64,000 bases of DNA from Montifringilla adamsi (taxonomy: Eukaryota > Chordata > Aves > Passeriformes > Passeridae), in assembly GCA_017590115.1 (NCBI GenBank), contig JAGGNK010007115.1:248001-312000 (forward strand). The letters run 5' to 3'. Of this stretch, positions 27,555 through 51,062 are shown piece after piece. The number at the start of each line of letters is the position of its first letter. Position 1 is the stretch's first letter. Position numbers and translations under genes: made by a program. The notes below the pieces were generated by a model. That model was not told the DNA's origin, made no database searches, and saw only the letters and a list, made by a program, of their open reading frames with translations.

Positions 27555-27910
27555 AGACGGGGGATCAGGGCCGGGCCTGCCCTGGGCTCCGGGCACTGCG
27601 TGCGGGACGCGGCCCCGCTGCCTGCCCAGCCGGAGCGGGGCTGGACGGAGCGGGGCTGGGAGGAGCAGGAGGGCAGGAACGGGGCAGGAGCGGGGCTGGG
27701 AGGAGCAGGAGGGCAGGAACGGGGCAGGAGCAGAGCTGGGAGGAGCAGGAGGGCAGGAACGGGGCAGGAGCAGAGCTCGCCGGAGCACGGAGGGCAGGAG
27801 CGGGGCAGGAGCACGGAGGGCAGGAGCAGAGCTGGCCGGAGCACGGAGGGCCGGAGCGGCGCGGGCCGTGCCCCGTCCTGCGGGAGCCAGCTCATCATCG
27901 CGGGGAGGGT
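27555..27910. other. CpG-rich patch containing the 40-bp minisatellite
   Basis: Strongly GC-rich with CpGs throughout. It starts with non-repetitive CpG sequence (27570-27650), continues through the minisatellite, and ends near 27905. With the AT-rich regulatory-looking blocks on both sides it could be a small CpG island. No TSS motif is visible. Confidence 0.45.
27661..27863. repeat. 40-bp G-rich minisatellite with degenerate tail
   Basis: The word AGGAGCAGGA starts at 27661, 27701 and 27741, an exact 40-bp period for three copies. Each unit contains GGGCAGGAACGGGGCAGGAG. From 27781 to 27863 shorter, rearranged pieces (CGGAGCACGGAGGGCAGGAG and variants) continue the array. The plus strand is G-rich with many GGG/GGGG runs. 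The GGGCAGGA word resembles the classical hypervariable-minisatellite core. Confidence 0.95.
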
Positions 27911-28460: not shown

Positions 28461-30539
28461 CAGGAGTGTGCTGGGTGATTAACACCGGCACGGAGCTGTG
28501 TGGTCCCTGCTGTGGTCAGAGGAAAAGGATCTTGTGCAGCCATGGCTCTGCTGGGAGCTGAGCAGGGTCCCGCCAGGACAGCTGAGAGGGAGGACTCCTG
28601 GTGTCCAGCTCTGGACGTCCCAGTGCCACATCCCCCGGAGTGTTCTGCCTCAACACTTCATCACCAGCAGAGAGGGAAGGGCAGGTTTTTGCTGTTTTAC
28701 CGACCTACTTGAGATGCTTCCTTCAGGGATGAACTGAATTATTCTCAGAATTGTCTCTTCTTTCCTTTCACTATAAAAAAAGCAGAAGGTGATGATCTCA
28801 GATGTGGAGCTGTAAGTCAGGAGGGATAGATCCAGTTGGAAATACCTGCTGGAAATGCCCAGTATTTTCCTAATGTGCTTCTCTGGTTCTACTTTATTTT
28901 AAGGATGCATTTTCTAAGGATGGATCTCCTGCAGTGTTTCCATGCAAATAGATGTTAGAAAGGGAAGAGAGAACAAGCCTTGCACATGTTTGTTGAAGGT
29001 AATGTTTTCGTGAGCCAGGTTTGCCCTGAAGACAGGTGGTCTTGAGCAGTAATTGCCCCTGCCAGCCTTGCCTGGGTGCCTTCTCCTGCCTCTCTGCTCC
29101 CTCCTGCAGTGGTGGGATAGAGGGGTTGCTGAGAGCCCGGCCAGATGTGGGGGATCCATGCAGCTGGATGGTGGAAGGCAACGGCAGCACAGTGGGGCTG
29201 TCTGGCTGCAGCCCTGTGTGCAGAGAAACCCCCCAGAGTGGGTTGGCTTCGGAGTCAGAGCCTGAACCTGGCTTTTTGTACTGGGGTAAAAATAAAGACA
29301 AAATCCCTGTGTGGATCCACAGTCTCTCTTAAGTTCAAATATGCCTAAAGTTTCTGTGGGAGCTCAGCACTCGAGGCAGCCCTGGTCGTTGCTGCAGCTG
29401 ACCATGCTGGGAGGGCTGCTGGTCTCTGGGGCTGGTTTGGGCAGCAGCCCCTTCAATCTCCATGTGAACTGCTGGGCTGCAGTAAATTGCAGAGATCCAT
29501 TGCTATTTATAGAGGAAAGGCAGCGTCTCTGCTCTCAAGTGCCTTGGCCCTGAGGGTGTAGGTAGGTACTGCAGGGTGAGATTCCTGAGGACGAGGGAGC
29601 CTGGGAGCTGCCCCAGAAGCTGGGCCAGTGTATGAAGGCACTGTGCCCATTTCTGCAAGCTCTGACCCCATCTCAGTCAGTGAGACTGGTGGAGCTGGTG
29701 CCACTCAGGGGAGTTAGTAGTGGTATTAACTGGAGGAAATACTACAGAGTAAGTATTAGCCTTGTATTATGTAGAATTTTAAAGCGCTTCATTAATTTAC
29801 AATTCCACTTTTTATTAAATTAATTTGCATTTTAATGAAAAAAAATAAGTGGAGCCAGCTCTCTTCTTGAAGTGGCAATAACATGCCACCTGTGTGTGAA
29901 TGAGCGTGCCCGAGCGAGCTGAGGTGGCGTGGCGAGCCCGCAGCCCTGTGGGGGACTGTCCCCAGGCAACGTCCCTCTGTCCCTGTGTCCTTGAGCAGCC
30001 TGTGTGCTCAGGCTGGCTCTGTGTGTGGGGGAAAAGGCTGCAGGAGGAGGCAGGAGCAGGATGCAATGGTGCCCTCACAGCAGGAAATGCCTCTCGCTGC
30101 CACCGTGCCCTTCTGACAGGGCCACCGTGTGTCCCTGCTGCCAGGCTCCTTCTTCCCCCCGAAACAGGGGCTGTGGCAGCAAGATGCACTGGGACAGAAG
30201 AGCCCCAGCACCCTCTCAGCAGGCAGGGCAAATGGAAGAGTTCAGCTGAAGGTTAATAAAAGTGAAAATTCCCACTGCTGGGCACCGTTTGGGATGTGCA
30301 GCTTGTGTTCCCTGCCAGTGCCAACGGCCCTGAGGGATGCCCGTGGTGCTCAGTGTCTGTTCCTGGTCTGGGATTGCTGCTCTTCAGGGAGATCAACCTC
30401 ACAGCCCTCCTTTGGCTGGCAGGTACCAGTTCTGGAGTGAAGCAGGGCACACTTGTGTCAAGTGAATGGCAGAGGTCATTCTGATGTCACTGGTGTCAAA
30501 CAGCTGTGTTTAAAGTGACAAAGGTGGTATCTTTCTCTG
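28461..30539. other. Unique noncoding stretch, no gene seen
   Basis: Mostly ordinary sequence. A short AT-rich segment at 29755-29850 holds TTTATTAAATTAATTTGCAT words and an octamer (29823-29830), and may be another small regulatory element. No gene or repeat family recognised. Confidence 0.55.
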
Positions 30540-30775
30540 CAAGTTTGTTAGGGTTTGGGTTTTTTGGGGGGTGGTTTGTTTGTGTTTTTGTTGTTGTTAT
30601 TTGGTTTGCTGGGGGTTTTTTTGTAGTTTGGGATCTTTCTGTTACTGTTCTTTGCTTGGAAGTTTTTTTATGTTTTGAGGGGTTTTACATTTCTTTGGGA
30701 GTTTTTGTTTGTTTGTTTCAGGGTTTTTTTTGGATAGGATTTCAGGTGTGATTACAGCTAGACCAAGTAGAAAAA
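30540..30775. repeat. T/G low-complexity tract
   Basis: T- and G-dominated plus strand with GGGTTTTTTGGGGGGTGG, TTGTTGTTG and TTTGTTTGTTT stretches, ending in an A run near 30770. Its composition resembles the tract at 17.0 kb, but the two are not sequence copies. It opens one plus-strand frame by chance. Confidence 0.85.
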
Positions 30776-30896
30776 AAAATTTAAAATCCAGTAGCTTCTT
30801 TGCCTTCTGGCTCTGGGATCAGTAAGTAACATCTCTGATGCCTCAAAAGCCTCCTAAACTCTTTACTGGGAAAGAAGTATTTCTCTTCAGGGTTTC

Positions 30897-30962
30897 ATAA
30901 TATTATTATTTAATAATTGTTGTTGGAATTATTATTACTGTTGTTGTTATTAATAAAATTAC
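30897..30962. repeat. Impure (TTA/TTG) trinucleotide tract
   Basis: Runs of TATTATTATT, TTGTTGTTG and TTATTATTA with interruptions, on an AT-rich background. Confidence 0.85.
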
Positions 30963-31319
30963 CATTTCATTGACTGCAAATGAGATTCTCTCCACCAAAC
31001 CATCCTTACTTCCAACCTCTCTTACCGTCAGCTCTGCTGTTGACTTTGTGGCAGCAGTCCCACACAGTCCTTTGGCTTTTGAGACAGGTTAATTTAATTC
31101 GTATTTTAATTTTAATTATTTTTTCCCAGTAGCAGCAGCTGTCTGCTCAGGGGACTTTGGCTGAGCTCCCTCACAGCTCAGAGTCACAGGGGTGCCAGCA
31201 GCTGTGACCCTCCCGAGTGGATCTCTGTGCAGCCAGAGCTGATGGGAGGTTCTGGCTCTGGGAGCACAGCCCTGGAGCTCCTTGCCCCTTAGAAGAGGAG
31301 CACCAGGGCATTGTGTGCG
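30963..31319. other. Unique noncoding stretch
   Basis: Nothing recognisable; a short AT-rich piece at 31090-31130. Confidence 0.5.
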
Positions 31320-31790
31320 TGTAGGCTTTTTTTAGAAAGGAAAATTAAGCAATAAACATCCACAGAAATGAGACATTTAAACATTCCAAGTAATTGATAC
31401 CAGGAAAAAATATGATAGGATGAAATCTATTCCTGCAATAAACTGTCCATTAGTTGGGCCATCAGCATAAGGCTAATCTAAAGTTATGAGGATCCATTAC
31501 AGATATAATCAAATACAATTTTCTATATTCCATGAATCAAAAGCACCATATGTATTAAGAGCCTAGTTTGTCTTTTTGTTCCTGCCTTCTCCTAGAACAG
31601 TGTATATCTGATTTCTTGTGTTATATTGCTCTGATGTCTGCTAAGGGCACCATGCCCTAGAAATTCACATTAAATAACTGAGAGCGAGTACTAGAAATGA
31701 AAAAAGTGAAATACTATCTAGACAGCTGGAAGTAAAAATATGAAAAGTGTTGCACTTACAGAAGGAAAAAAAGCCTATTTTTATGACTTG
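31320..31790. promoter_or_regulatory. Candidate conserved noncoding block (AT-rich)
   Basis: Long AT-rich block free of simple repeats, with words such as AAGTAATTGATACC, GGCTAATC, GATATAATC and ACATTAAATAA. High AT without low complexity, between GC-richer flanks, is the pattern of many vertebrate conserved noncoding elements. Inference only. Confidence 0.3.
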
Positions 31791-33404
31791 AATAGACAGC
31801 CTGGTATAAAGAGAAATTTCTCACCCAAGATCAGACATGCAGCTGGGTTGCAGCAGGCAGCCTGGGATGCTGGGTGTGGTACAGATATGGCTCCAGAGAG
31901 CGTGGGGATGTGGCTGCAGGTGCCAGGTGTGTCACACTTGCTGGGTGGAGGGTCGTGTTCTGGCTTCATAAGCATTTAAAGGAGACCCTGCAGACAGGGT
32001 GAACCTGTGGCCAGATATATCTGCAGCTGTGAACTCTCCCACTATGAGGGTTGTTCCCTCCATCCTCCGTGGCCTGACTTCCAACTTGTCCTTCTTTCCC
32101 TTTGTTTCATTAATTTTTCCATTTCTCACCACTGAGCAGCACACCCCTCTCCAACAGCCCCTACCCAGGTCCCTGCCTGCTGTGCTTGCTCTGCTCCGCT
32201 GGGATGCCTGAGCAGATCTGCTTCTGTCCAGCTCATGGACACACCCTAGGTCTGACAGATGTCTCTGGGAACCAGTGGCCAGGAGACACTTTATCAGGAG
32301 AGCCTGAAGGCAGCTGCCATGCTTTGCAAGGGTTGCTGCTTCCTGACAAGAGCTGCCCCATGTCTGAACAGTTTTCCAGAAAGGTGTGTGTGACCTGCCT
32401 GTGGCCCAGCACAGGGGCTCTGATGTGCTGGCAGGAGCCTGGAGCTATCTCCTGTCCTTGCTACCTCACCAATTCTCCAGCTGTTCTCTAGTCCCATCTG
32501 GAAAAAACAAATCTCTTCTGTCTCCCCAGACCAGCCCCCTGGTTTGTCTGTGCTCTTTTCCAAGGCTGACCTGCACTGTTTGGCTTTGCAGCATCCTCTT
32601 CTCCAGAAGAGCACTTGGACACTGTGGCACTGCTGGTGCTCTGGATCTGCCGTGTACCTTGGCTCCATCAGCTGGACAGGCTCCAGGGATACCGGCTGGG
32701 GTCTCTTGGTTCTTCCCCTCTGTAATATTTCACCTTGTGCCATGGGTAGCTGTGAACTCCCAAGGGCAAATGTCCCTGCATGGGCTTGCCCTGCTCAGGG
32801 AACCTGTCTGAGCCTGGGGAGAGGGTTTGTTCAGCGAAGCTGAAGCCACGGTGGGTCTTTTGTGCCAGCACAGGGCTCAGCTGTCAGGGCATGTTGCAGG
32901 CTTGCTGCTAAATTCTAGGGCAAGGAGCAAAAGATTGTAAAAGGACAATATTCTGTTGGTAATTTGGACAAAATTAGTGGCTGTGTAATCATCCTAAGTT
33001 AATCAGTGGATGTGAGATGAGAGTCCTGCCACAGGGGCTAGGAAGCACGAGCCTGCTGAGAGCACCAAGTGGGAGAGGGGTGACAGCTGAGTGGGATGCT
33101 GCCACAGCCAAGACGAGTGAAACCTGGTATTGGGTTTCTTTGCTAAGAGCTGCGGATCTGCCAGCTGACGAGGCAGTGAGTTCTGGGGGCAGAGGAAGAG
33201 CCTGGGACGTGGTTAGTGCTCATTAGCAGCCAGAGATGTGAGAGCCCTCAGCACCCTGGTTCTTTGGGCTGGCCACGCCTTTGGCTGTCCCTGCAAGGAG
33301 GGCCAGCACGCTGCTCCTGGTGGCACAGCTCCAGCAGCTGCCGACCTCTCCTCAGCAGAACAGCTGCTCTTGGAGCTGCGGATGCTAAAGGCTTGAGAAA
33401 TTAA
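31791..33404. other. Unique noncoding stretch, no gene seen
   Basis: Pyrimidine-richer and TG/CA-rich sequence, with open frames up to 149 codons on both strands and no recognisable domain. No repeats recognised. Confidence 0.55.
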
Positions 33405-33800
33405 TTTTGCCTGTCAAAAATTCAAATGTGCACGTGTGAACTGTGGTTCAGCGAGGTATGAACCCACCTGGCTGCGCTCCAGCTCCGGGAGCGCCGCTCA
33501 CCGCAGGGGAGAGGAGGCCAGCGAGTACCTGCCAGTGTAAGCTGCTATTGTCTTCCACATAAAACATGCCCTTAATTAATAGCTAGCATGAACCTAAGCC
33601 ACTATCTCTGTTATCAATTTGTGGATGTGGTTGGATTGTCTGTCTCCCAGGACAGTAATATCCCTTCATCTTACTGCAAATTGCTCACAGCATCCTTCTA
33701 TTACACAGGCTTAATGCTTGAAAAATAGAGATTTAATACTCTACCATATCAGACTAAGTGAGGTCAAAGCAATTCATATTCACGATCCCACAAAGCTCCC
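33405..33800. promoter_or_regulatory. Candidate conserved noncoding block with CpG core
   Basis: AT-rich sequence on both sides of a small CpG cluster (33470-33525). Holds CTTAATTAATAGCTAGC near 33570 and TATCAATTTGTGG near 33612. The mix of CpG core and homeobox-type words resembles the block at 28.1 kb. Confidence 0.3.
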
Positions 33801-34779
33801 TGCTGGTGTTCCTGTGAGGAATGTGATGTGGAGGATGCAAACCAGGGAGGTCCTGCGTGGCTCACAGCTGTCCTGCACCAACAGGGACCAGGACAGCCGC
33901 CCGTGGTGGAAGTGTTGGCCCATCCCTGGGAGGAGAGCGGCTGCACTGTGTGCCCGGGCACGGCGGCTGGGCTGGAGGGGTCCCTTCTGGGCTCTGGCAG
34001 CCTCTGGCCCCATGTTGTTGCCACCCATTCTTGCGTTTCCCATTCTGAAGGGTTTTGCTGGAGAAGAATGGCAGCATTTTTTGTGTGATAGGATCAGAAA
34101 CTGCTTCTGGGGTTCCCAGGGTACTGGAGGATCCCTGATGTGTTTTTAATGAGCTGGCTGAGCGTAACTTGTGTGCAAGTTTCCTCTGAACTGCTGGTTG
34201 TCACCTTGGCTCTGGGCAGAAGCATGTCCTGTGTTCACATATTTATTTTTGTCCTGAGAGGTGTATATATATTGAGAAAAAATAGTAGCTGGTGTTTGTG
34301 CATTTCCTCCCCAGCAAGAAAATATATATCTCCAGGGATGATGAGTATATTGCCAGGACACATTCCTCCTGCATTTGCTTTTATGTGTGTGCCAGGACAT
34401 GGATTTCACCTGCAGCTTGTGAGAAAATATCTAAGCATATAAAATGAAGGGGAAGTTTAGTTTCAGAGGGATTTTTGCTGAGAAATTAAACATGGGTTAG
34501 GAGACGTATCCCTTTGCCTTGCACAAAATTGGTATGATGAACATAATTCTCCTGGTGTGAGCTGAATGTCCAGCTGAATTTGCCAGCAAGACACTGAATG
34601 GGGAGCACCGCTGTCCCAGCCCCAGAGCAACACGTGCAGTTGGGCAGCATCAGTGCTGCCATGCTGGGGCAGGCTGCCTTCTGCACCGAGAGCACTGGGC
34701 AGCAGCACTGCCCCCGAAAACAGCGCTTCTCACAAGAAAGGATTGTTCCCGAGGCTGAGGAATCTGGAGAATGAAACTG
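33801..34779. other. Unique noncoding stretch, no gene seen
   Basis: Mixed sequence with open frames up to about 143 codons and no domain. TATATAT words near 34263 and 34322 lie in an AT-rich segment; no promoter is called. Confidence 0.5.
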
Positions 34780-35180
34780 CTGGGCTAAAATTAGGTGGTG
34801 CAGCTGGCAGCGATGGCTGTACAAACGCACTAATTGCAGAGGAGAGGTGGCTCCGGAGCCGCCGCGGTTCCCTGCCGGGACCAGCTCCCGGTGACTGCAG
34901 GGCCACTGGAACCCGGAGAAGGATTTGGGGAAAGGAACTGCCAGGCCCGCTGTCCTCTGAGGCACGGTGACACGCTGATGAGTGCTGACGGGTGGCTAAT
35001 TGCTCAGGGCAGGCTGACATAATGGAGCAGTTCTGAGAGCACCTCAGCTGCGGAGGTCAGCAGTGACGCAGAAGGCTTAATTTTTCATAGCGTGCTCCTT
35101 GTATCCTACAACTCCTCCTGTAATGGACTAGCAAATTACCACACTATTTAAAAGGCACCAATTTATAACATTTTGATAAC
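34780..35180. promoter_or_regulatory. Candidate conserved noncoding block with CpG core
   Basis: CpG cluster (34850-34925, with GCCGCCGCGG) between AT-richer segments carrying CACTAATTGCAG (near 34828), GGCTAATTGC (near 34993) and GGCTTAATTTTTCATAGCG (near 35073). Composition-based inference. Confidence 0.3.
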
Positions 35181-36320
35181 TGCATGCTCCTGAGGGTATG
35201 TTATCCATGCCTGCAGAGAGAATGAGTAGGAATGCTGCTGTCCCTGCAGCGTGGGCATGGGCACGTGGGAGCACGCACACACACACCTCTGCCATCCCCA
35301 CACCTCCCCTCCAGCTCAGCTCAGAGACTCATCAGGCCTCCTGGAAAAGACCTCTGCCTCTCATATCTAGGCTGCCTCTGTCCCATTCCTGCTCATTTCA
35401 ACACGTCTCTGGTTTAGGGACCCTGGTGACGTTCCAGTGCCCGCCCAGTTTCGCTGTTCCCCAGGGTCACTGCCTGGGCCCATGTGTGCACTGCTCTGGG
35501 TGCACCTGGCTGTTTCCATGCTTGCACTGCCTCCTGTCACAGGAGAATGACTTCAATCCCCAAGGGATGTCCAAGTGGTTGCTCCCACAGAGGAACTGCA
35601 ATCATGAGAAGGGGGTAGGGCTCATGGAACCATACTGACCTGATTTACAAAGCCCCATGGTCAGCAAACAATTCTTTTAAAGATCTCTTCTTACCTCCTT
35701 GTGGGAAGGGACCTTAGGGCTCCATCCCAGGTGCAGCTGCCCTCGTGTCTGTGATTTCTCTGCAGACACGCTCAGGCCACCACACACATCTGGGTGTCCC
35801 ATTCACAGTATTTCAGATACATGCTGCCCTGCTGCTGCTGCTGTGTTGCACAAACATCGCTTTTGCTGCATGAGACGAATTCTGCCTTCATTTCTCACTC
35901 AGGATTCTGAAGAATTGGGTGCCCAAAGAATTTGCATGGAAACATACATCCCTCTCAAGTAACTAAACTCTCATCCCTGGGTCATGGCAGCAGGGTAGCT
36001 CTCCCTGCACAAATTGGGCCCTCTGCAATTTCCTCACAGAAGCTGCTGCTTTCCACAGAACCACCAGGTGCCATGTCCTGGGAGGAAGGGAACACAAGAT
36101 CCAAGTGCTGGTGTGAAGCCCAGGGACTGGTGCATCCCCTTGTCACACTGTAGGAGAGAACAGAGCACAGCACAGGAGCAGGGAGCCACAGAGCTGTGTT
36201 TGGGTGGACAGTTTGCAGTGAATGTGCCTGTGGGTTTGGCAGCAGAGTGTTCCTACATTAGCACCACAGCAGCAGGTGTTATTAACTGTCTGCTTTCCCT
36301 CTAGAGTGGTGTAGCTGCTC
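35181..36320. other. Unique noncoding stretch, no gene seen
   Basis: Ordinary sequence with a short CACACACAC run near 35275. No gene or element recognised. Confidence 0.55.
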
Positions 36321-36495
36321 CATGCAGCAGAGATGCATCCAATTAAATGGACGGATAAAAGTGGTTAATGCACCTTGGAGAAGCATAATTTAATTGGAAA
36401 TTATTATTATGTTCTGCTCCTATGTAAAGAGTGTGAGAATCAGGGCTAATGGCTCTGTATGAACATGACTTTTAATTGCTCTGAGGTTCTGTGAT
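36321..36495. promoter_or_regulatory. Candidate conserved noncoding block (AT-rich)
   Basis: Short AT-rich block with CCAATTAAATGG, ATAATTTAATTGG and TTTTAATTGC words, directly 5' of the minisatellite flank. Inference only. Confidence 0.3.
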
Positions 36496-36803
36496 TTAAG
36501 CTTCTTTCTGGTTTTGTTTCTCAGAGGTCTTCGCTGGGATGCAATAACACACTGGGGTCCAATGAGGTACATTGCCATGAGTCAAGGCTGTCACTCCTCT
36601 TTGTCCTGCTTCTAAGGTGGAGCTTGAGTCCATGTTTTGCCTGTGAAACCCACAGGGATGGCTCCTGAGAGCAGCATTCCTGGCTGAATGCTGAACTCCT
36701 GGCTGAACTCCATCCCCCAGCTGCCCCGTGCGGGGAGGCAAAGGCTGTGCCCTGCTGCACGGTGCTGTCCTGCTCAGCACTGCCTTCTGCACCGTGTCTG
36801 TGC

Positions 36804-37913
36804 CACTCCAGAGGGTCTGCAGGGCACTCCTGCCCCCTCCCACTCCAGAGGGTCTGCAGGGCACTCCTGCCCCCTCCCACTCCAGAGGGTCTGCAGGGCA
36901 CTCCTGCCCCCTCCCACTCCAGAGGGTCTGCAGGGCACTCCTGCCCCCTCCCACTCCAGAGGGTCTGCAGGGCACTCCTGCCCCCTCCCACTCCAGAGGG
37001 TCTGCAGGGCACTCCTGCCCCCTCCCACTCCAGAGGGTCTGCAGGGCACTCCTGCCCCCTCCCACTCCAGAGGGTCTGCAGGGCACTCCTGCCCCCTCCC
37101 ACTCCAGAGGGTCTGCAGGGCACTCCTGCCCCCTCCCACTCCAGAGGGTCTGCAGGGCACTCCTGCCCCCTCCCACTCCAGAGGGTCTGCAGGGCACTCC
37201 TGCCCCCTCCCACTCCAGAGGGTCTGCAGGGCACTCCTGCCCCCTCCCACTCCAGAGGGTCTGCAGGGCACTCCTGCCCCCTCCCACTCCAGAGGGTCTG
37301 CAGGGCACTCCTGCCCCCTCCCACTCCAGAGGGTCTGCAGGGCACTCCTGCCCCCTCCCACTCCAGAGGGTCTGCAGGGCACTCCTGCCCCCTCCCACTC
37401 CAGAGGGTCTGCAGGGCACTCCTGCCCCCTCCCACTCCAGAGGGTCTGCAGGGCACTCCTGCCCCCTCCCACTCCAGAGGGTCTGCAGGGCACTCCTGCC
37501 CCCTCCCACTCCAGAGGGTCTGCAGGGCACTCCTGCCCCCTCCCACTCCAGAGGGTCTGCAGGGCACTCCTGCCCCCTCCCACTCCAGAGGGTCTGCAGG
37601 GCACTCCTGCCCCCTCCCACTCCAGAGGGTCTGCAGGGCACTCCTGCCCCCTCCCACTCCAGAGGGTCTGCAGGGCACTCCTGCCCCCTCCCACTCCAGA
37701 GGGTCTGCAGGGCACTCCTGCCCCCTCCCACTCCAGAGGGTCTGCAGGGCACTCCTGCCCCCTCCCACTCCAGAGGGTCTGCAGGGCACTCCTGCCCCCT
37801 CCCACTCCAGAGGGTCTGCAGGGCACTCCTGCCCCCTCCCACTCCAGAGGGTCTGCAGGGCACTCCTGCCCCCTCCCACTCCAGAGGGTCTGCAGGGCAC
37901 TCCTGCCCCCTCC
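36804..37913. repeat. 37-bp minisatellite, 30 perfect copies
   Basis: Head-to-tail array of exactly 30 units of 37 bp (1110 bp). Each unit starts CACTCCAGAGGGTCTGCAGG and ends GCACTCCTGCCCCCTCC. I saw no substitution or indel in any of the 30 units. The unit is 26/37 G+C, has no CpG, and contains one CTGCAG and two CACTCC words. Read on the minus strand it contains GGAGGGGGCAGGAG, close to the classical minisatellite core. Because 37 leaves a remainder of 1 on division by 3 and the three-unit peptide cycle has no stop, all six frames stay open and produce spurious frames of 380-592 codons. It is not a CRISPR array (no spacers) and there is no sign that it is coding. Confidence 0.99.
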
Positions 37914-37938
37914 CATTCCAGCAGGGTCTGCAGGGCAC
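37914..37938. repeat. Degenerate terminal copy of the 37-bp repeat
   Basis: CATTCCAGCAGGGTCTGCAG followed by GGCAC matches the unit start with one substitution and a changed/inserted part (CAGCAGGG for CAGAGGG), then diverges. This is the only variant unit, as expected for an array edge that does not take part in homogenisation. Confidence 0.9.
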
Positions 37939-39059
37939 CGGTGCCCTCACAGCAGCTGTGGTGGCTCCTTGCTGCTCCCTTGCTGCTCCCACAGGGACGT
38001 GGATGCTGTAGGGTTACAGCTGCACATCTGCAGCAGGAGTGGGGCTCCAGTGAGTCTCCCACCACAGGATGCTCACCCATGGAGCTGATCAGCAGTGACT
38101 GTAGGAGAGATGGAAAATGGAGCCTGTGTAGCGTGCAAAGAACAGGCTTGTACAGCAAACCAAGGAAAGGAAACTTTCTCCCCTGCAAAGCTGTGAACCC
38201 TCCCTGGCTCACAGACCACTTGTGGTGTCTTTTACAGCCACTCCAGTTTACCAGAGTGGTGCTTATAGAGGTGGGGAAAATGCAGTTTTGCAATGGCATG
38301 GCAAATGTCTGTGAGGAAACAAGACATCAAGCTGCCATCAGCACAAATATATCTGTGCCTTGTTTTCCTGCTTTCCTGGCTTTGGACAAGTGCCACCACA
38401 ACCAACAATTTTCCTGTTCTTTTTTAGCTTTGCTTTCACAAGTATCTTAAACCAACTCCCTCCATCCCAGCAGAAACAGAATACACTGATGGGTACAGAA
38501 TAAAAAAAGTCAGGATTTTTAATCTGTCAAAGAGAAGCAGGGAGAGCCTTGGGCTCCTTCAGTGGGCTTGTGGCCACAGACCTGGACACCAGTGGCCGGG
38601 CTGTGAGCAGTGGGCCTTGCCCATGCCCCTCTCCAGAGGGGGCAGCTGTGGAGAGTGGTCTGGGCATTGTTCTTCCAGTTGTTTCCCACAGCCAGTCCAG
38701 GTGAGAGAGAGTCTCCTGGCTACAGGTGCATCGAGCCAGCGCCCTGGGGACCACCTGTGAACATGGCAGGAGGCAGGAGGTGGCTGTGGAGCTCTGTCCC
38801 TCCTGTCCCTGCGCTGGCCAGGGCAGCCCTGGGCGCTCAGCGAGGGCAGGGCAGCTGGTACCAGCACATGCCTGAAGCTTCCCATCACAATCTCACCAAC
38901 ACAGAGTCCTTTTAAAACCCTCCACAAGAGCCCAGGCAGTAAAGTGGTAGCCCTGGGCACCGCCAGCCCAAGGAATCTGTGTCACAGCTGGGGTGGCTCA
39001 GACAGTGGTCCAGGGGGTCCCAGTGCACGGGCAGGGCAGCAGTGCTGTGCCTCGGAGTG
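37939..39059. other. Unique noncoding stretch, no gene seen
   Basis: Ordinary sequence. Open frames entering from the minisatellite run on to 38,450 (plus) and begin at 38,299 (minus) only because of the array. Confidence 0.55.
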
Positions 39060-39620
39060 CACTCGTAAGTGGAGCTGATTTTATAAACAGCAGGACTGTT
39101 TTCCCAGGCCACATGCTGAGCTGTATTCAAAATACATTTGTACGAACATCAATTTTTAATGCAATTTATGCCAAATGTTGTTGCAAAAAGCAGCCGTTAA
39201 CATGACATTAATTCAATCACTGGAAATACAGTACGTGCTGCTAAATGAAAACATGTTATTAGTCAATTAGATTAACTGGATGTAACACTTCCAAACACAA
39301 CGTAATATGGTTTCTACATGGTTAATTACGTTGTACAAATTACATGGCAATAAGGCTTAGCACTGGACACACACATGCAATTAATACATAAGCAGAAAAA
39401 CCAGCTTGTGATTCACATTTGAACTATGTAAAAATTATTTAAAATATAAATATCTTGCAAGCTTGAAATAAAGAGGCAGAATTATGCTGATACTATAATG
39501 GGCACGGGGTAATTTCTAAAATAGCCAGGAAGGCCTTTGTGAGGAGATCACAGATGTTCGTGGTTGCTTTCACGAGTTTCAATTTGCTTTGAAAAGACCA
39601 TTTTAATTTTAAACAGGAAC
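39060..39620. promoter_or_regulatory. Candidate conserved noncoding element, strong homeobox-site cluster
   Basis: Sustained AT-rich block without simple repeats and with a high density of ATTA/TAAT cores: ACATTAATTC (39206), GTTATTAG, GTCAATTAG and GATTAAC (39255-39276), a palindromic TAATTA at 39323-39328, CAAATTACATGG, and GCAATTAATAC (39378). A lone GTACGTGC word lies near 39231. Flanks are GC-rich on both sides. Of all the blocks here this one looks most like a developmental enhancer. There is no alignment evidence. Confidence 0.4.
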
Positions 39621-42600
39621 GCTCCTGGCCCTGTTGGAGTCCCTCTATGCGCAGGAATCTGTCGGTGCCCACGCAAGCCTCCTTCTTTGTTTGTGTTTTA
39701 GGAAGAATTTGCACCCACTCGCGGGGCATGGTGCCAGCCTGGCAGCAGGAGCGGGCACGGTGCCTGGCAGCCCGGGCACGCCACAGGCGCCACCAGCGCT
39801 GCCCACAGCGCCCGTCCCACCACACACAGCGCTGGGACCCCCACCGCGGGGTCGGGAATGCCCAACCCCAGGGAGATCTGCAAAGAGGAGGCTGTTTCTG
39901 GAAGGACTCGGCTCTGTGCCAGAGGGCAGCTGTAGCCCAAGACAGACGCCCAAGGCAGCAGCCCCACACTGGTCCCACTGTGCAGGGAAGGAACTGCACA
40001 CCCAGGAGTGGCTGCCTGCAGGCGCCCAGCCCCGAGGGCAGCTCTCTGCTGCTGCTGTGAGGTGGCTGGCACCTTTGGCAGAGCAGAGCTCCAGGCCCTT
40101 GCTCCCAGGGGCTCTGGGAATGGGGCAGTGGCTCCTCGGCAGTGGGGACCCTCGGAGCCCTGTGCTGCAGAAGCACCAGGCAGCTCATCCCTCTGCACAC
40201 GAGGCAGAAACAGGCAGGTCATAGAGCTCTGGAAATGCAGTTTTATACCTATTCCTGCGATAATTATCACAGTTCATGGACATGTGACTTTTCCCCTCCG
40301 TTACTCCATCAGTAATCCTAACAGCATTCCAGCAGGGCTTGGAGGGTGGGGGAGCACATGGAGGACCCACACTGGTGCCTCCATGGCACCAAAACAGTTT
40401 GGAGGGGGCAACCAGGGGCGTGAATGAGGGGGGAAAGAGATGTGCCCGTGGTTGACAGGCTGGGTCCTGTGGCCCCACTGCTGGGGCTGGGGGCTGCACT
40501 GGCGGCTGCAGCCCCAGCTCCCGGGCGCCCAGCCCTGCCCAGGGACAGGTGCTGATGCTGGCAGTCTCACTCAAGCCCCTGCTGGGTTAAGGTTTAATTT
40601 TACATACTCAGGGGCATGGTCCAACAGCCACTGTGCAGTGGAGGATGGCTTATTGGTTTCACAGGGACAGGGGAGCAGTCTGGGCAGCCTCTGTACGGCT
40701 GGCACAGACACACACCAGCGCACTGCTGCAGCCACTGACAAAGCAGTGATAAAGCTCTTGGAGATATTCCTGTCTCATCTGCCTCGAGTAAATCAGAGCA
40801 AACCTGGAAACATCAGAGGACACAAAATGCAAAAGCAATAGAAAACTCCTGACTCCCGTTGAAGGCACAATGTGGTCTGACATGACCACTGGCAGCAGAA
40901 GGATTTCACATGATTGGGGGCTGCTTACATGAGGAATTGTTCATTATTTAGTGGCTGCTTAAGGGGCCAGGGAAACAAAAATCAAAGCTCCTGCTGTTCT
41001 CTGGTGATGAAAGGGCTGCAGCTGCCCCAGTGCAGTCGCGTTTACCTCCAGCCTCACCTGCACTGGGAGCTGGAGAGGTGTCTGGCTGCCTGCTCAGAAA
41101 TGAAAGCGCTGAGAATCAATCATTTGTTTACATTGTAGGTCTTGTTGAAAATCAATTGGCTCCACATGCTGTAGATCTGATTGCATTTTGTTAGCGGTCA
41201 CAGGGAATGGTTTTCCCTTGACAAGTCTGTGTTCGTGGTTCCTCCAATGCATCAGTTGTACCAAGCTTTTAGGATAATTGAGACTGAGCAACAATCCCCT
41301 TTATAAATATTAACTCTGATATGCTTGGGAAACTCTGCCTCTCCTGGATGAATTTTTAACTAGCTTTTTAATCTATTGTTCCTTGTTAGAACAGCAGGAG
41401 CATTCCTTGGTGCCTGCTCCTGCCTCCCCAGCTGCAAGAGAGAGGCATCCCTGCCGAGCCCCCGTCCCAGGGCAGGACCCAAAGCCCCTGGTCCCAGGGC
41501 AGGGCCTGCTGCTGCCCTGCCCACGGGTACAGCCCCACAGAGCAGGGACACAGGGCTGAGAGCAACCATCCAGGGGCTGAGAAGGAGTTTTGTTTCTCCC
41601 AAAGGGACAGGTACACAGGGATGAGTTTCCACGTGGATCTTTGGAAGTTTCCTTAGGTGATGCCTGGGACAAGCAGAGCCCAGCAAGAGGGCAATCTCTT
41701 GGAGCAGATGCCTGTCCCTGTGCCCACTCATGGCAACGAGCCCGAGGGATGCAGCCTCAGCACCCAGGGAACAACAGGGGAGACAGCACTGTCTGAGCCA
41801 TGGGAGCTACAGAGGTGGGGGACCCCCGGCCAGACCCAGACCCCTGTACCTGGGGGGCCCAGGACACACTGATGGAGGGATGTCCCCTGGGAGGACATGC
41901 TGGGCTCCAGGAGCTGGGAAGGCTGTGGAACGGGCTCCTCTCTCTGGCAGGGGCTGCCAGGCCCCTCTGAGCCCCCCTCCCTGCTGCTGTTTGGTTCTGC
42001 AGAACAGCCGGTCACAGTCCAGCAGCTCTGGCCTGGCTCAGCTGAACTGTTTCTTTTCCCCCACAATCAGATGTTGCCCTCTTTAATATTATCTGAACAT
42101 CTGTCAAACTGTGGCTCTTTTTGTGAAACCTCTGTACAGGAAGAGACAAAAGGCAGCAGGGATGCTGTTGAAATGAAAGCCCTACTTTACATTTCAAATG
42201 CTTTAACAGATTTTTCTTTTCTTTTTTTTTTCCTTGGATTTTCAATAAGAGCTATAAACAGACCCTTTTTTAAAGGTGGTTGCTTGCCAAAGGACATGTC
42301 AGTGGGGATGTGAGGAAGCTGTTGCACTCAGAGGTTGCTCAAGTCACTGCCCCAACTAGGCTTGGTGTTCCAGGCTGGTGCGTGCCTGTTCCAGTGGAGT
42401 GGCTGCTGATCTTCCACAGGGGCAGGATGGATGGATTGCCTGGAGAACCCAGGCATGTGCTGCCAGCATTTGCCTAATAGGCACCTCAGAAATGTGTCCT
42501 GGGAGCTGAGCTTGCCTCCCGAGCAGCTGCTGTTTCTCTCCAGTAAGTATGTAAAGCTTAGCACATTCCCAAGTGCAGGAGGTTTCTGCTGGGGACCAGA

Positions 42601-43239
42601 GGCTGCATGCTGCCACTGTGGCTGGAAGACCCCAGGGGGAATTCCAGAGCTCCACGATACAAACAGCATCAGCTGAAATAACGGTTCTTGGGCACTCAGG
42701 CAGTACTTTCAGGTTTCTAAGCAGTCTGTATCATGCTGTGGCTATTATTAAAATGCTCCTGTGGTCAGTAGCACTGCAGCTTGCCCTGAAGAGTGCACAG
42801 AGATTTAAGGCCAAGAAATCCATTTAGTGTTCTTGCAGGCCAGGCTGGGGACAGTAGCATTTGTCCCACGGGGAGCCAGACCCTGGCACAGCTCTGCCCC
42901 AGTCTGTGCTGTCTGCCCCTGAGCACAGGAGATGGCCAAAGGGGCCGGTGCCAAAGGGCACTTGCACCACGTCCCACTGCCTTCTCCTGCCCCCCAGGGC
43001 TGAGCCTTGCCCCGTGGCTGCTCCACAGCCACCCCTGGCACACCGCAGGCTGGAAACAGTTCTGGGGTGCTCCCGGCCCCTCCGCCCCCACTCTGGCTGG
43101 TGGCAATGCAAGGCACCTCCTTTGCAAGGAGGAAAATTAAATTCCTGCTAGCAGGATGACTGCTAGCTGTTGGGAGCCATTCCTCAGCCGACGCTGGCCC
43201 CGCGGCTGGGGGAGCCTCCGGCTGGCTGTCGCGCTGGCC
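39621..43239. other. Mostly unique noncoding stretch, no gene seen
   Basis: GC-rich with CpGs at 39710-39870 and 43180-43240. Smaller AT-richer pieces at 40215-40330 (GCGATAATTATCACAG) and 41095-41380 (CAATCATTTGTTTACATTG) could be further regulatory elements. Open frames up to 235 codons near 39.5-40.2 kb overlap on both strands and lack recognisable domains. Confidence 0.5.
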
Positions 43240-43800
43240 AGCTGTACCCATATTTCAATGCTTGGGGAGGGCGGGTTATTTCCTCACTGCTTGGCATGGT
43301 TGCAAATTTCAGTGGAAAAGCTAAACCAAACAGACTGTGGAGTGTCACACTGCGTTAGTTCTGTGCGGAGAAGCGTTGTCAAACCCGCAAACAAGAGACG
43401 GGAGAAGCCTGGAATTGATGCTGGGCTGGTGTGGCCGCTGAGGCAGGGGCTGGGACACTTTCCTCGCTGCCAAACTCCGTGTCAGAGTCTGGAGCTTGAA
43501 CCGAGCCTGATGGGAGTGGATTTATTTAAATTGCCAGGATAAATTAACTTTTAAAGTCACAGTGAAAAAGTCTGTGCTGCGAATAAGAGCCATGAATATT
43601 CAGGCACATGCACTCATTGAATTAGTTTGTTGCAAACATATTTGGAGGCAGCTGTTCATTTAATAATCAGGGATAATCACAGAAATAGGCGACCGGTTAC
43701 TCCATCTAAATTGCATGGTTAAAATTATAATTTTATAACTCTATCTCAGCAATTAGATTTAATAGCTATGGAAATCCAGCAAAACCCAGTTGAGGGAAAG
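43240..43800. promoter_or_regulatory. Candidate conserved noncoding element
   Basis: AT-rich, non-repetitive block. It has a perfect palindrome TGAATATTCA at 43593-43602, a perfect palindrome AAAATTATAATTTT at 43721-43734, and further homeobox-type words (GAATTAGTTTG, TTTAATAATC). It keeps isolated CpGs (GCGAATAAG, GGCGACCGG, GAAGCGTTG). Enhancer-like by composition only. Confidence 0.35.
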
Positions 43801-44707
43801 CTGTTCCTCCTTTAGTGCAGAAAAGCCAAGGTCAGGCTAGGGTTCCCCTCTGCCCACACCGCAGGGACACTGGGGCTGGGGCTGTTTCCAATACTGCCCA
43901 AGCACAGAGCCAGGACTTCTGGGCTGAACACTCTAATTCCAGCACTGAACCAGGTGGGGGTTAGTTTTCTTGGCATTTCCTGTCTTCATTACAATATTTG
44001 TCCCAAGAACAGATTAATTCCTCTCATTCTTTCTGCCTTTCCAGCCTTTTGTCACAGGAATGCATTTCACAGGACTGTAATGTGTGATACTTGCTCTGAG
44101 TTATGGCTCTGCCATATGCTGTAAAAGTTTGACTCTCTCAGTATTGTACATTTTGATTCTACCCCTGCAGGCTATAAACAACCCAAATTACCTCTTTCTT
44201 TAGCTTCCAAGAGGACTAATCCCCTGTCTAGTGCTTTATCAGTCAGTTGAGAAGGAGTGAGACCAACTTGCCAATCCAAACAGAATATATTGGAAAAACT
44301 GTATCTCCACAACACGCTCCTTGCCATAAGTCACCGACCAGCCCAGCCAGTGGAACCTGGTGCTGCAGTCACCTCTGGCTCTGAAACAGACCAGCAGCAG
44401 ATGCACCACCGAGCCATCGTCCTTCCTGCCCCTTCAGCCTCTCCTGCAGCCCTGCAGGAGCACGAAGGGCTGCAGTGGTGGGGGTGGTAGGCTGCTGCCT
44501 GGGACCCCTTTAGCAGCCTGAACCCTGTGCTGGTGATGAGCTCAGTGCTGCCAGCAGCTCTTGCTGTCCCTCCACCACTGGCTAGGGCTGGGGTGGGCAG
44601 GGGGCTGCACTGGGGACACACCGTTTGTGGGGGGATCTCCTGAGCTGCTCCCTTTGCCGTGTCCTGGGCAGCCTCGCCGGGTGGGTTCTCCTGCACACCA
44701 TCCCCAT
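43801..44707. other. Unique noncoding stretch upstream of the duplication
   Basis: No gene or repeat recognised. It becomes GC-rich approaching the duplicated segment. Confidence 0.5.
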
Positions 44708-44826
44708 GTGAAGGGGAGAGCATGAGGAGGAAAGGGAAGGGTAAGGAGTGAGGGCTCCACCGGGCATCAGGTGGTTAAAGCACTCGAGGGGCGTGAGAAG
44801 CGGGGTCCCCGCAGTGTGACCGGGAC
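44708..44826. repeat. 119-bp dispersed module, copy 1
   Basis: Sequence from GTGAAGGGGAGAGC to GTGTGACCGGGAC, repeated 790 bp downstream almost exactly. It contains a tight inverted repeat GCGGGGTCCCCGC (44800-44812), a CTCGAG and six CpGs. The left breakpoint of the 3.64-kb duplication falls inside it at 44724. Family unknown. Confidence 0.93.
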
Positions 44827-45497
44827 AGTGGTTCATCCTGCACACCTTGATGCCTTCAGCCACTCTTCTCTGCTGGGTGTGGCTGCTAGGGAGAGGCAGG
44901 ACACAGCCTCTGCCTGGGGAGGGGGCTCTCCCCGGAAAAGGGAGCCAGAAGTCACGACAGCCACCGTGGGAAGAGCCCCCAAGGGTGCCCTCCTGCCCAA
45001 ACACGCAGCTCCTTGGCTGAGCTGGAACTCCACTCCTCTCCAGCACCAGGCCAGTGTGGTTGCTCCAAGGTTTAACACTTTATTAGAAAATGAGAGGTTA
45101 GAGCATGTTCCAGAGGAGAAGGAAATTTATTGTTGCCCTGGCCCTGCAGCAAAGCAAAACTCAAATAACCCAGATGCGGGGAGGACAATAAATCCCTGCT
45201 GGCAATCACACTGCTAAAAGGAGGGTGACAGCCACAGCAAAGTTTGGCCAGTTAATATTTCTCATATCTGAGTGAGAAAAATACCTATATTTAAAATTAT
45301 ATCTCTGCTGAATGACACAAGGAGAAAGTTCATGTAGCTGTAAGGCCTTCTAAACACCTTTCTGCAGGAGGTGAGGGTTTGCAGAGGGCTCCTGGGAGCA
45401 GCAGAGGGTCCCAGGGGTGTCTTCCCCACTGTCTTTCTCTGCCCAGCCAGCCCTAGTGCCACATTCTGCCCTGAGCAGGGCAAGGGTGTCTCATTTT

Positions 45498-45616
45498 GTG
45501 AAGGGGAGAGCACGAGGAGGAAAGGGAAGGGTAAGGAGTGAGGGCTCCACCGGGCATCAGGTGGTTAAAGCACTCGAGGGGCGTGAGAAGCGGGGTCCCC
45601 GCAGTGTGACCGGGAC
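45498..45616. repeat. 119-bp dispersed module, copy 2
   Basis: Same module as at 44708, in the same orientation, with the inverted repeat GCGGGGTCCCCGC at 45590-45602. The sequence diverges right after CCGGGAC, which marks the module's 3' edge. Confidence 0.93.
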
Positions 45617-46226
45617 GTGGCTGTGGCCAGGAGGGGTCAGTGAGCCAGCTCAGCAGGGGACAGGCACGGGGTGAGCTGCGTGTCCCTGCCTGTGCTCCTG
45701 CAGCGGGACCACGAGGGCACTCACCACCCCAACAGCTCCAATTCCTTCTCCCACTTAAAGACTTAATTATGAGAAATTGTCTCAATTTTTATTTCCAGGC
45801 GTCACTATTGTGAAGCCAGACTCGTCCACTGGGTAAAGGTACTTGGCTGGGGGTCGTGGGAACAGCAGGGAGCACAAAGCAAAGGAAGCATTTCAGCTCA
45901 ATGTGTGCTATAAATTTTCAATGTGTTTTTGTTTTATGCTCCAGGTAAAGGCTACAGAAGCCATCAATCCTCTTCCTGGCGGATCCTGAGCTGCTGGTGT
46001 GCAGGCTGCATCTGTCTGGGACAGCCCTGATGGGGTGAAGGCGACGAGGTGTCCTGGACCATTTTGGTTTGCATTTAAAATTTTTCAGAAAATGCAGAAA
46101 ATACAAGCCACCGAGGGATATTTGGATCTTCTTGATCTGATGCCTGAGATACCTCGCTGTCAGGCTGCAGAGAGCTCTGGCACAGGAGCCAGTGTGATGC
46201 CAGCACAGCTGCCCTCTCCTACCCCT

Positions 46227-46490
46227 GCCATGTGATTCATGAGCTTTCACGTCTCTGCCATTAGCCTGTTAATCCAGCACCTTGCTCCAGCCACACCACG
46301 GGGGAGGATTTATGGTTCTTACATATCAATTTCGTTGTCCCAGGAGGAAAATCAGCATCTTGTTATGGGTAAAATGACAATAAATGAAACGACCATTAAT
46401 TTACGATCTTGCCACACAGTGGCACTCAAACAGATTCCCATTAATGGCTTGTTATTATCACCTCCCATACTGAGCTAATAACAGGTCCTG
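46227..46490. promoter_or_regulatory. Candidate conserved noncoding block, duplicated (copy A)
   Basis: AT-rich, non-repetitive block with GTTAATCCAG, TATCAATTTCG, CATTAATTTACG, CCATTAATGGC-like and CTAATAACAGG words. It is identical, as far as I can read, to 49869-50132 in copy B. Enhancer-like by composition only. Confidence 0.3.
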
Positions 46491-47094
46491 GGAAAAGCCA
46501 TACTGAGCACTGGGAAGGGGCTGCTGCTGGATGTCCCACAGTGGCAGGGCAGCCCCCAGCCCTGCTGCCAGGCCAGGGAGGGAGGCAGCAGCCAGCCCTG
46601 CCATTCTGGAGGGAGATGCTGCTGCTGCCCCTCCATGGGAGCTGGGATTAAGAGCCTTTTGCAAAGGCACAAAGAAAAGCAAGGCTGGGCTGGCTGCATC
46701 CTCTGGGGACACAGGACCAGGGGTACATCTCTACAGGGACGTGCTGGCACTGGGGACCCTCATCCCATGCTCCTCTCCATCCCCTTGCACCGAGGATGAT
46801 CCCAGATCACTCGCTGACAATGCAGCTCCACCAGGCAGCAGCTTAATTTTGGATGCAGGTTGATCCCACTGGTGGCAAGTGAATTTGTGGAGTGTTGCAG
46901 ACCAAGGCCAGTGTGATCCTTGCCTGGCTGGAGGCTGCAGGGTCCCCACCAGCCCCGGGCCATGGCCCTGTGTCAGGCAGCAAGAGCAAGCTGCAGTGCA
47001 GCTGTGCTGGGGGAGATAAGGATGGATGGAGGCAGAGAGGGGAGGAGGAGCTGCCAGGTGGGAGAGAGCTTCCTGGGCAAGGAAAACCTGATTT

Positions 47095-47420
47095 ACTTCC
47101 TGGGAAGTAAAACCTGATTTTTCTATTTGCTTGCAGCTCAAAAAGCCCAGAAACATTAGCTTGACATTAAATGACTTCTCAAAACTTCTACAAAGCACAG
47201 AGTACCATAAAACACAGAACAAAGGGCAGCCTTTTTGTATGTGGAAGTGCTTAATTTGGTCCAAAATGAAGAACTTAACATCCTTACTGAATTTGTTCTT
47301 TTTAAGAACATTAAAGGCATCAGGTGGACAAGCACCAAAACTCCTTAAAAAGCTGTCTTTTTGAAAGCCAAATAAATTGACATACCAAACTCACTGCCAA
47401 CAAATTTCCTTCTTTTCCAC
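47095..47420. promoter_or_regulatory. Second AT-rich block inside the duplication (copy A)
   Basis: AT-rich block with GACATTAAATGAC, GCTTAATTTGG and AACATTAAAGG words. Repeated without visible change at 50737-51062. Inference from composition. Confidence 0.25.
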
Positions 47421-48365
47421 AAAATGTTTCATTTTAGTACCCGCTCCTGGCAGCTGTTCCATGCCTGTGTGTGCCTGCCCTGAGCCTGGAGGCAGCGTGT
47501 GCTGGCTGGGCAGGGTGAGCACCCCGAGTGCCCCAGCCCCTGGGGCACAGCAGCTCAGTGCCAGCCTGGGCAGTGCCCAGCACGGAGCTGCCACATCTGC
47601 TGGGCACCAGCTGTGTCAGGTGCATTTTGCTCAACACGTTTTTTGCATGACAAGTAAACATGTGAGGAGCTGATCTCCATGAACACAGTTTTACAGTAAT
47701 ACAACAGTACAAATAAATACTCCAGCGTATCTCCCAGTGTCACTTTTATTTACAGTTAAGTGACCTGTTATTACTGACCCTTCTGCCACAAAGGCCTAAT
47801 TGAGAGGAGGCCACAGAGCAAGCAGGGCTGGTGTGAGAGTGCATCATGCTAAATAATTCATAACCAGCACTGTAGTTCTTGCAGTGATATATGTAAATAG
47901 GAGCTCTGCAGTTTGTAGCTTTCAGTCTGGGTTGTTTTATGAATTTTAAAAGGAGAGAGTGTTCATTCTCTGGTGCAGAACTGAGAGGAGTTTCTGTTCC
48001 CTGAAGTCCCGTCCCCAGAAGCCAGCTTCACAGGGCTGGCTGAGGCAGGAGGAGTCTGCTCCTGGCCTCGTCCTGCAGGAGCACTTCTTCAGTCTGTCTG
48101 CTCCAGAGTTTTACCTGTGGCTCCGTGAGAGTCCCTGCAGGACCAGCTGCAGGTCCAGAGGATGGAGGCTGACACCCCAGGGTGGAAATGCAGCACTGGC
48201 AGAGTGTCCTTCCCACACTGCAGGGAGCTCAGTCCGAAAACCCCAACTCTGAGTTTCTCATCAGCTCAGGGAGATGCCTCAGCTGCAGGAGGGAGCCAGT
48301 TTGCCACCTGGACCAAAGCCACCAGCAGATCCCAGGCTTTCTCTGCATCCCAGAGCTGCAGCCTG

Positions 48366-48468
48366 GAGGAGGAAAGGGAAGGGTAAGGAGTGAGGGCTCC
48401 ACCGGGCATCAGGTGGTTAAAGCACTCGAGGGGCGTGAGAAGCGGGGTCCCCGCAGTGTGACCGGGAC
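48366..48468. repeat. 119-bp dispersed module, copy 3 (5'-truncated)
   Basis: Only the last 103 bp of the module are present because the tandem-duplication junction cuts it. This shows that the module was in place before the duplication. Confidence 0.93.
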
Positions 48469-49139
48469 AGTGGTTCATCCTGCACACCTCGATGCCTTCA
48501 GCCGCTCTTCTCTGGTGGGTGTGGCTGCTAGGGAGAGGCAGGACACAGCCTCTGCCTGGGGAGGGGGCTCTCCCCGGAAAAGGGAGCCAGAAGTCACGAC
48601 AGCCACCGTGGGAAGAGCCCCCAAGGGTGCCCTCCTGCCCAAACACGCAGCTCCTTGGCTGAGCTGGAACTCCACTCCTCTCCAGCACCAGGCCAGTGTG
48701 GTTGCTCCAAGGTTTAACACTTTATTAGAAAATGAGAGGTTAGAGCATGTTCCAGAGGAGAAGGAAATTTATTGTTGCCCTGGCCCTGCAGCAAAGCAAA
48801 ACTCAAATAACCCAGATGCGGGGAGGACAATAAATCCCTGCTGGCAATCACACTGCTAAAAGGAGGGTGACAGCCACAGCAAAGTTTGGCCAGTTAATAT
48901 TTCTCATATCTGAGTGAGAAAAATACCTATATTTAAAATTATATCTCTGCTGAATGACACAAGGAGAAAGTCCATGTAGCTGTAAGGCCTTCTAAACACC
49001 TTTCTGCAGGAGGTGAGGGTTTGCAGAGGGCTCCTGGGAGCAGCAGAGGGTCCCAGGGGTGTCTTCCCCACTGTCTTTCTCTGCCCAGCCAGCCCTGGTG
49101 CCACATTCTGCCCTGAGCAGGGCAAGGGTGTCTCATTTT

Positions 49140-49258
49140 GTGAAGGGGAGAGCACGAGGAGGAAAGGGAAGGGTAAGGAGTGAGGGCTCCACCGGGCATC
49201 AGGTGGTTAAAGCACTCGAGGGGCGCGAGAAGCGGGGTCCCCGCAGTGTGACCGGGAC
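49140..49258. repeat. 119-bp dispersed module, copy 4
   Basis: Full module, the copy-B equivalent of 45498-45616, with one change that creates an extra CpG (GGGCGCGAG for GGGCGTGAG) at 49226. Confidence 0.93.
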
Positions 49259-49868
49259 GTGGCTGTGGCCAGGAGGGGTCAGTGAGCCAGCTCAGCAGGG
49301 GACAGGCACGGGGTGAGCTGCGTGTCCCTGCCTGTGCTCCTGCAGCGGGACCACGAGGGCACTCACCACCCCAACAGCTCCAATTCCTTCTCCCACTTAA
49401 AGACTTAATTATGAGAAATTGTCTCAATTTTTATTTCCAGGCGTCACTATTGTGAAGCCAGACTCGTCCACTGGGTAAAGGTACTTGGCTGGGGGTCGTG
49501 GGAACAGCAGGGAGCACAAAGCAAAGGAAGCATTTCAGCTCAATGTGTGCTATAAATTTTCAATGTGTTTTTGTTTTATGCTCCAGGTAAAGGCTACAGA
49601 AGCCATCAATCCTCTTCCTGGCGGATCCTGAGCTGCTGGTGTGCAGGCAGTATCTGTCTGGGACAGCCCTGATGGGGTGAAGGCGACGAGGTGTCCTGGA
49701 CCATTTTGGTTTGCATTTAAAATTTTTCAGAAAATACAGAAAATACAAGCCACCGAGGGATATTTGGATCTTCTTGATCTGATGCCTGAGATACCTCGCT
49801 GTCAGGCTGCAGAGAGCTCTGGCACAGGAGCCAGTGTGATGCCAGCACAGCTGCCCTCTCCTACCCCT

Positions 49869-50132
49869 GCCATGTGATTCATGAGCTTTCACGTCTCTGC
49901 CATTAGCCTGTTAATCCAGCACCTTGCTCCAGCCACACCACGGGGGAGGATTTATGGTTCTTACATATCAATTTCGTTGTCCCAGGAGGAAAATCAGCAT
50001 CTTGTTATGGGTAAAATGACAATAAATGAAACGACCATTAATTTACGATCTTGCCACACAGTGGCACTCAAACAGATTCCCATTAATGGCTTGTTATTAT
50101 CACCTCCCATACTGAGCTAATAACAGGTCCTG
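49869..50132. promoter_or_regulatory. Candidate conserved noncoding block, duplicated (copy B)
   Basis: Copy-B counterpart of 46227-46490, with no differences seen. Confidence 0.3.
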
Positions 50133-50736: not shown

Positions 50737-51062
50737 ACTTCCTGGGAAGTAAAACCTGATTTTTCTATTTGCTTGCAGCTCAAAAAGCCCAGAAACATTA
50801 GCTTGACATTAAATGACTTCTCAAAACTTCTACAAAGCACAGAGTACCATAAAACACAGAACAAAGGGCAGCCTTTTTGTATGTGGAAGTGCTTAATTTG
50901 GTCCAAAATGAAGAACTTAACATCCTTACTGAATTTGTTCTTTTTAAGAACATTAAAGGCATCAGGTGGACAAGCACCAAAACTCCTTAAAAAGCTGTCT
51001 TTTTGAAAGCCAAATAAATTGACATACCAAACTCACTGCCAACAAATTTCCTTCTTTTCCAC
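50737..51062. promoter_or_regulatory. Second AT-rich block inside the duplication (copy B)
   Basis: Copy-B counterpart of 47095-47420, with no differences seen. Confidence 0.25.

Follow-up and report, generated by a model that had tools for sequence, protein, structure and literature searches.

The closest described systems to the array reported here are the GC-rich, single-locus minisatellites and VNTRs of the Jeffreys type found in vertebrates, a 10-mer core of which, GGGCAGGANG, is printed in PMC2408603. Minisatellite units are put at 9-100 bp in one account (PMC2599865) and at 11-60 bp in another (PMC4992247), whose own table further demands 50 units, more than our array has. As excerpted, PMC2599865 reports highly interspersed variants at many human autosomal loci, and an excerpt of PMC3356730 tabulates twenty variations of the unit of human D1S80, a subtelomeric VNTR with a 16-bp unit and many unit types. 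In birds, the "sequence stuttering" summarized in PMC12954441 consists of motifs tens of bases long that have expanded locally in tandem within GC-rich DNA, as imperfect repeats that lie mainly in introns of dot-chromosome genes. The array described below is a new locus of a well-known kind, an ordinary minisatellite.

We analysed a 64-kb window (C148:248001-312000) on a contig of 11,421,808 bases (C148); the window contains no N bases, and coordinates are those of the window unless a contig or locus is named. A 37-bp unit, CCACTCCAGAGGGTCTGCAGGGCACTCCTGCCCCCTC, is repeated head-to-tail at 36803-37912, and 30 of 30 consecutive copies are identical. An earlier, sequence-only reading had reported thirty perfectly identical units at 36804-37913, which is the same array with its phase shifted by one base, and had placed a degenerate unit at one edge only; both observations hold. 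The features of the locus are as follows.

36743..36802, no strand assigned: left flank of the array, with a sharp boundary and no degenerate unit
36803..37912, no strand assigned: minisatellite core of 30 identical 37-bp units, the exact period running on to 37915
36822..36835, no strand assigned: inverted repeat GGGCA-CTCC-TGCCC, one per unit (position in the first unit, by arithmetic)
36828..36835, minus strand: GGGCAGGA, which reads TCCTGCCC on the plus strand, one per unit (position in the first unit, by arithmetic)
37913..37948, no strand assigned: degenerate edge unit of 36 bp, whose alignment with the array unit shows substitutions, one inserted base and a gap of two bases

The exact period-37 run extends over 1113 bp (36803-37915), three bases past the last perfect unit, and TRF reports 30.7 copies at 36803-37938 with 99% matches and 0% indels. 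The first 22 bases of the unit matched 30 times at up to 3 mismatches, whereas 100 dinucleotide shuffles averaged 0.00 matches; hence, the array is not a product of chance. Its GC content is 0.70, compared with 0.52 for the window, and it has no CpG. With a period of 37 and 30 perfect units, it falls within the usual size range of minisatellites (units of about 10-60 bp, up to 100 bp). To the left, three successive 37-bp steps show 28, 30, and 26 mismatches to the unit over 37 places, and the single degenerate unit (n = 1) stands at the right edge only. The edge unit (37913-37949) has a fold z-score of -2.00. By eye, it also holds a perfect 14-base palindrome, GGGCACCGGTGCCC, at 37933-37946, where the array units have the looser GGGCACTCCTGCCC; the palindrome is possibly the ancestral state.

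The array resembles Jeffreys-type loci in its GC-rich 37-bp unit, its length of about 1.1 kb, its uniform core, its degenerate edge, and an exact match on one strand to the first eight bases of the printed core. These eight bases are GGGCAGGA on the minus strand, and the extended GGGCAGGAGT on that strand agrees with the core at 9 of 10 positions, the last base being off. When the minus strand was aligned with the longer, 16-base form of the Jeffreys core, 14 positions matched with one deletion, a score that 10 of 3000 shuffled units equal or beat, as do 17 of 3000 GC-rich genomic 37-mers. We regard this likeness as suggestive of kinship, not as proof. A second short inverted repeat in the unit reads CAGA-GGG-TCTG. 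Elsewhere in the window, a GC-rich array of 40-bp and 30-bp units (27647-27868) also contains GGGCAGGA as a recurring element.

Other comparisons are looser. Like D1S80, the array has tens of tandem units at one locus, but it has a single unit type and no variants inside, unlike D1S80 and the many human autosomal loci with interspersed variants. It shares with avian sequence stuttering the local tandem expansion of a motif of tens of bases in GC-rich DNA and an expected variation in length, whereas its units are perfect, no gene was identified near it, and its contig measures 11.4 Mb; we therefore do not place it in that class. In the titles and abstract openings of the best-ranked literature matches such a 37-bp array goes unnamed, an absence that carries little weight.

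We also considered coding and structural explanations. Two long open reading frames cross the array, at 36688-38088 on the plus strand and 36521-38299 on the minus strand, and no Pfam family matched either at E<=0.1. The remaining frames through the array were covered by six-frame scans of 30001-45002 (15 kb around it), which gave no family at E<=0.01. Ten stretches, nine open reading frames and one exon candidate, gave no Pfam match at the curated cut-off; weak matches at E values of 0.016 and 0.019 both lie in reading frames elsewhere in the window. A crude exon scan, run with a human codon table, produced 17 candidates in the window, none recognised and none between 28,846 and 44,283, and the best-scoring candidate found nothing in PDB at E<=1. 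A coding tandem repeat was rejected, as 37 is not a multiple of 3 and the frames through the array lack a Pfam match. The array is apparently non-coding and could sit in an intron. We likewise rejected an RNA or structured element: across the window no Rfam family reached its gathering score and no tRNA was found, and one or three units folded no better than shuffles (z from -0.44 to -1.31).

The minus strand of the array carries 29 non-overlapping two-tier (G2) G-quadruplex-type matches, and neither strand has a three-tier (G3) match. G4Hunter shows a mild excess: the absolute score reaches 1.2 in 16% of the 25-nt windows of the array, against 2.9% in the rest of the 64-kb window, and 1.5 in 2.7% against 0.85%. 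In view of the missing G3-type match, we rejected a G-quadruplex array; the G2-type matches and the mild excess remain. The human PRDM9 hotspot 13-mer matched neither strand of the array. We also considered that the array may be constrained, for example as a repeated protein-binding or structural element, and held uniform by selection. The short inverted repeats of the unit, the G2-type matches and the G4Hunter excess are in its favour; the lack of a G3 match, of folding better than shuffles, of an Rfam family in the window and of a Pfam domain nearby speaks against it, and selection rarely holds every base of 30 units. We consider such a functional array extremely improbable.

The genome comprises 1,028,896,467 bases in 846 contigs and is probably that of a bird, to judge from its size and composition. 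A search of it with a two-unit probe gave at least 15 matches, all inside the array; very common words were skipped and only the best candidates scored, so that such counts are lower bounds. Within the limits of that search, the array is a single locus as opposed to a member of a dispersed satellite family. An exact 28-base pattern from the unit had no match in prokaryotic genome contigs or viral contigs, as expected for a vertebrate sequence. A subtelomeric position is not supported: the array lies 285 kb from the contig start, but a two-unit TTAGGG had no match on either strand in the 5 kb at each contig end.

The surroundings of the array contain further repeats. A direct tandem duplication of about 3.64 kb (44724-48369 and 48366-52008) lies 7-14 kb from it, with 99.5% identity: 12 mismatches in 3647 columns (0.33% divergence) plus two gaps, of 4 bases and of 1 base. 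Four copies of a stretch of about 108-125 bp lie at 44707-44831, 45497-45620, 48366-48473, and 49139-49262, and a pair of them may mark the points between which the duplication arose. The duplication bears on the suggestion of the sequence-only reading that the perfect array might be an assembler's guess at the true copy number. In an assembly or polishing artefact, a true array with variant units or another copy number would have been polished or collapsed into 30 identical units. One assembly gives the copy number of one haplotype at best, and reads shorter than an array can collapse it to fewer copies, as an excerpt of PMC7757076 has it. Against an artefact, ordinary long reads exceed 1.1 kb, the contig spans 11.4 Mb, the assembly keeps the two 3.64-kb copies apart at 12 positions and two gaps, and variant units are preserved in other arrays of the window, such as those of 38 and 40 bp. 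We judge the artefact possible but quite unlikely.

To place the array among its neighbours, we drew from a TRF survey every array with a period of 20-100, no fewer than 5 copies, and a match rate of 98% or above. Besides the 64-kb window, the survey took in the adjoining sequence as four 10-kb stretches and another 124,720 bases elsewhere, 228,720 bases in all; this small sample left out eight loci (L001-L008), which repeat the array. Three arrays qualified in the 104 kb around the locus, against none in the 124,720 bases elsewhere: the 30-unit array itself, a 38-bp array of 5.0 copies (11823-12013), and a 37-bp array of 9.2 copies in one adjoining stretch (L012, 6365-6703). This contrast may be an effect of composition, as GC in the other stretches was mostly lower (0.34-0.57 against 0.49-0.53 around the locus). 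The 38-bp array has 98% matches, and its variants sit in the left units.

The 9.2-copy array (C148:328365-328703) lies 42 kb from the 30-unit array. Eight of its nine units are the same, and a single substitution sets apart the remaining one, at the edge. The combination of a uniform core and a variant edge thus recurs locally; 30 copies nonetheless stand out. The sequence-only reading had called the homogeneity extreme, which is overstated locally, with 3 such arrays in 104 kb. The two 37-bp arrays are alike in period, in their edge variant, and in a 12-mer, CTCCCACTCCAG, on the same strand, whereas the remainder of the unit differs. Equally high scores were found for 44 of 2000 and 76 of 2000 GC-rich genomic 37-mers and for 14 of 2000 shuffled-unit pairs; the 12-mer is compatible with chance, and we rejected kinship on this basis. 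By eye, the unit of the smaller array resembles an imperfect dimer of 16 and 21 bases.

We also considered whether C148:228-332 kb might be a region, outside dot chromosomes, that is prone to duplication and that forms tandem arrays and keeps them uniform unusually fast. The 30-unit array, the 9.2-copy array, the 38-bp array and the 3.64-kb duplication would then share a single local cause, for example a stable recombination hotspot. We hold this to be rather unlikely. In another region, the arrays of L017 2045-2681 (contig C40) are AT-rich and much degenerated, with periods of 28-126 bp and 67-80% matches, unlike the uniform, GC-rich ones close to the window.

We next asked what ages and rates would fit the perfect array. 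We took 4.6e-9 per site per generation as an avian point-mutation rate. Under a star model at this rate, zero substitutions in 1110 bp set a 95% limit of less than 586,708 generations on the age of a single burst; across rates from 1.2e-8 to 2e-9 the limit runs from 224,905 to 1,349,429 generations, a weak constraint. An array as old as the 3.64-kb duplication would be expected to carry 1.8 substitutions, and the probability of seeing none is 0.16, so the array need not be younger than the duplication.

These limits suit a single recent burst, in which one event or a few multiplied one or a few units, through replication slippage, break-induced replication or rolling-circle-like reinsertion; the array would since have been largely stable and would be too young for point mutations. 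The absence of substitutions fits an age up to 586,708 generations (at 4.6e-9), the 99.5% identity of the 3.64-kb copies points to recent local duplication, and the left edge is sharp. Moreover, one survey saw no variation at most of the human minisatellites it covered: an excerpt of PMC8096271 gives nearly 20% only of some 184,000 genotyped loci as variable. On the other side, slippage and exchange readily affect long uniform arrays, which makes growth without later turnover less expected, and the second uniform 37-bp array nearby would require a second burst. We regard a single burst as possible, if doubtful.

To estimate how much turnover would keep an array perfect, we simulated arrays of 30 units at the start, with 10-60 allowed and events at random positions, under six settings of block size and mutation rate. 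The fraction of time spent in full homogeneity was 0.00 at 1e-5 events per array per generation, 0.00-0.03 at 3e-5, 0.02-0.28 at 1e-4, 0.11-0.61 at 3e-4, 0.38-0.84 at 1e-3, and 0.64-0.96 at 3e-3. It exceeded 10% in all six settings from 3e-4 up, and in 2 of 6 at 1e-4 (a mutation rate of 2e-9 with blocks of 1-3 or 1-10 units). A separate one-setting run agrees with this result. In this model, for ongoing turnover to keep an array perfect, its copy number would have to change at a rate of about 3e-4 per array per generation or above.

Such a rate lies within the printed minisatellite range, which is given in an excerpt of PMC2636768 as 0.15 down to 1e-4 or less. Swallow fingerprint bands mutate at 10/5271 = 0.0019 per band per generation in the same excerpt, and one bird study, as cited in part from PMC2693433, gives 16/1537.5 = 0.0104; both rates are above the threshold of about 3e-4, and, being counted on bands scored on such gels, they may not apply to a 1.1-kb array. 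Human D1S80, at only about 7.8e-5 in the excerpt of PMC3356730, is below it, and the small variable share in the human survey likewise counts against turnover.

On this evidence, we favour, at a probability of about 0.62, a single-locus GC-rich (70%) minisatellite of a vertebrate, probably avian, genome, apparently non-coding, that is kept uniform by ongoing turnover of blocks of units. Two points tip the balance towards turnover: the pattern is seen again nearby, and long uniform arrays readily undergo it. The analysis covered one assembly, and a single burst within 0.22-1.35 million generations would give the same pattern. We suggest that one 37-bp unit was duplicated beside a relic unit, now the right-edge unit, to judge from its position and divergence. 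The array would then have grown, and repeated gains and losses of unit blocks would keep it uniform, by candidate mechanisms that include unequal sister-chromatid exchange, gene conversion and synthesis-dependent strand annealing within the array. Variants would be lost as fast as point mutation supplies them, and the edge unit would escape turnover. An array of this kind should be polymorphic in copy number and has no evident coding role.

The sequence-only reading had offered very recent expansion or continuing homogenisation. These are the right two candidates, and "very recent" is not forced by a limit of 0.22-1.35 million generations; the interpretation is thus supported in part. Its forecast of strong length polymorphism between individuals is a reasonable prediction, to be set beside the share of nearly 20% variable loci in the human survey. 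The perfection of the array allows either a burst less than about 0.6 million generations ago or turnover at about 3e-4 or more, so the genotyping of individuals that it proposed is a real test. The test is a clean one between burst and turnover: with no internal variants, individuals whose arrays differ in length must differ by a copy-number event, and the model supplies the rate that turnover requires (about 3e-4 or more per generation). The array may also serve as a highly variable length marker. It has no internal HaeIII, HinfI, AluI, or MboI site, and the flanking HinfI sites closest to it lie at 36626 and 38052.
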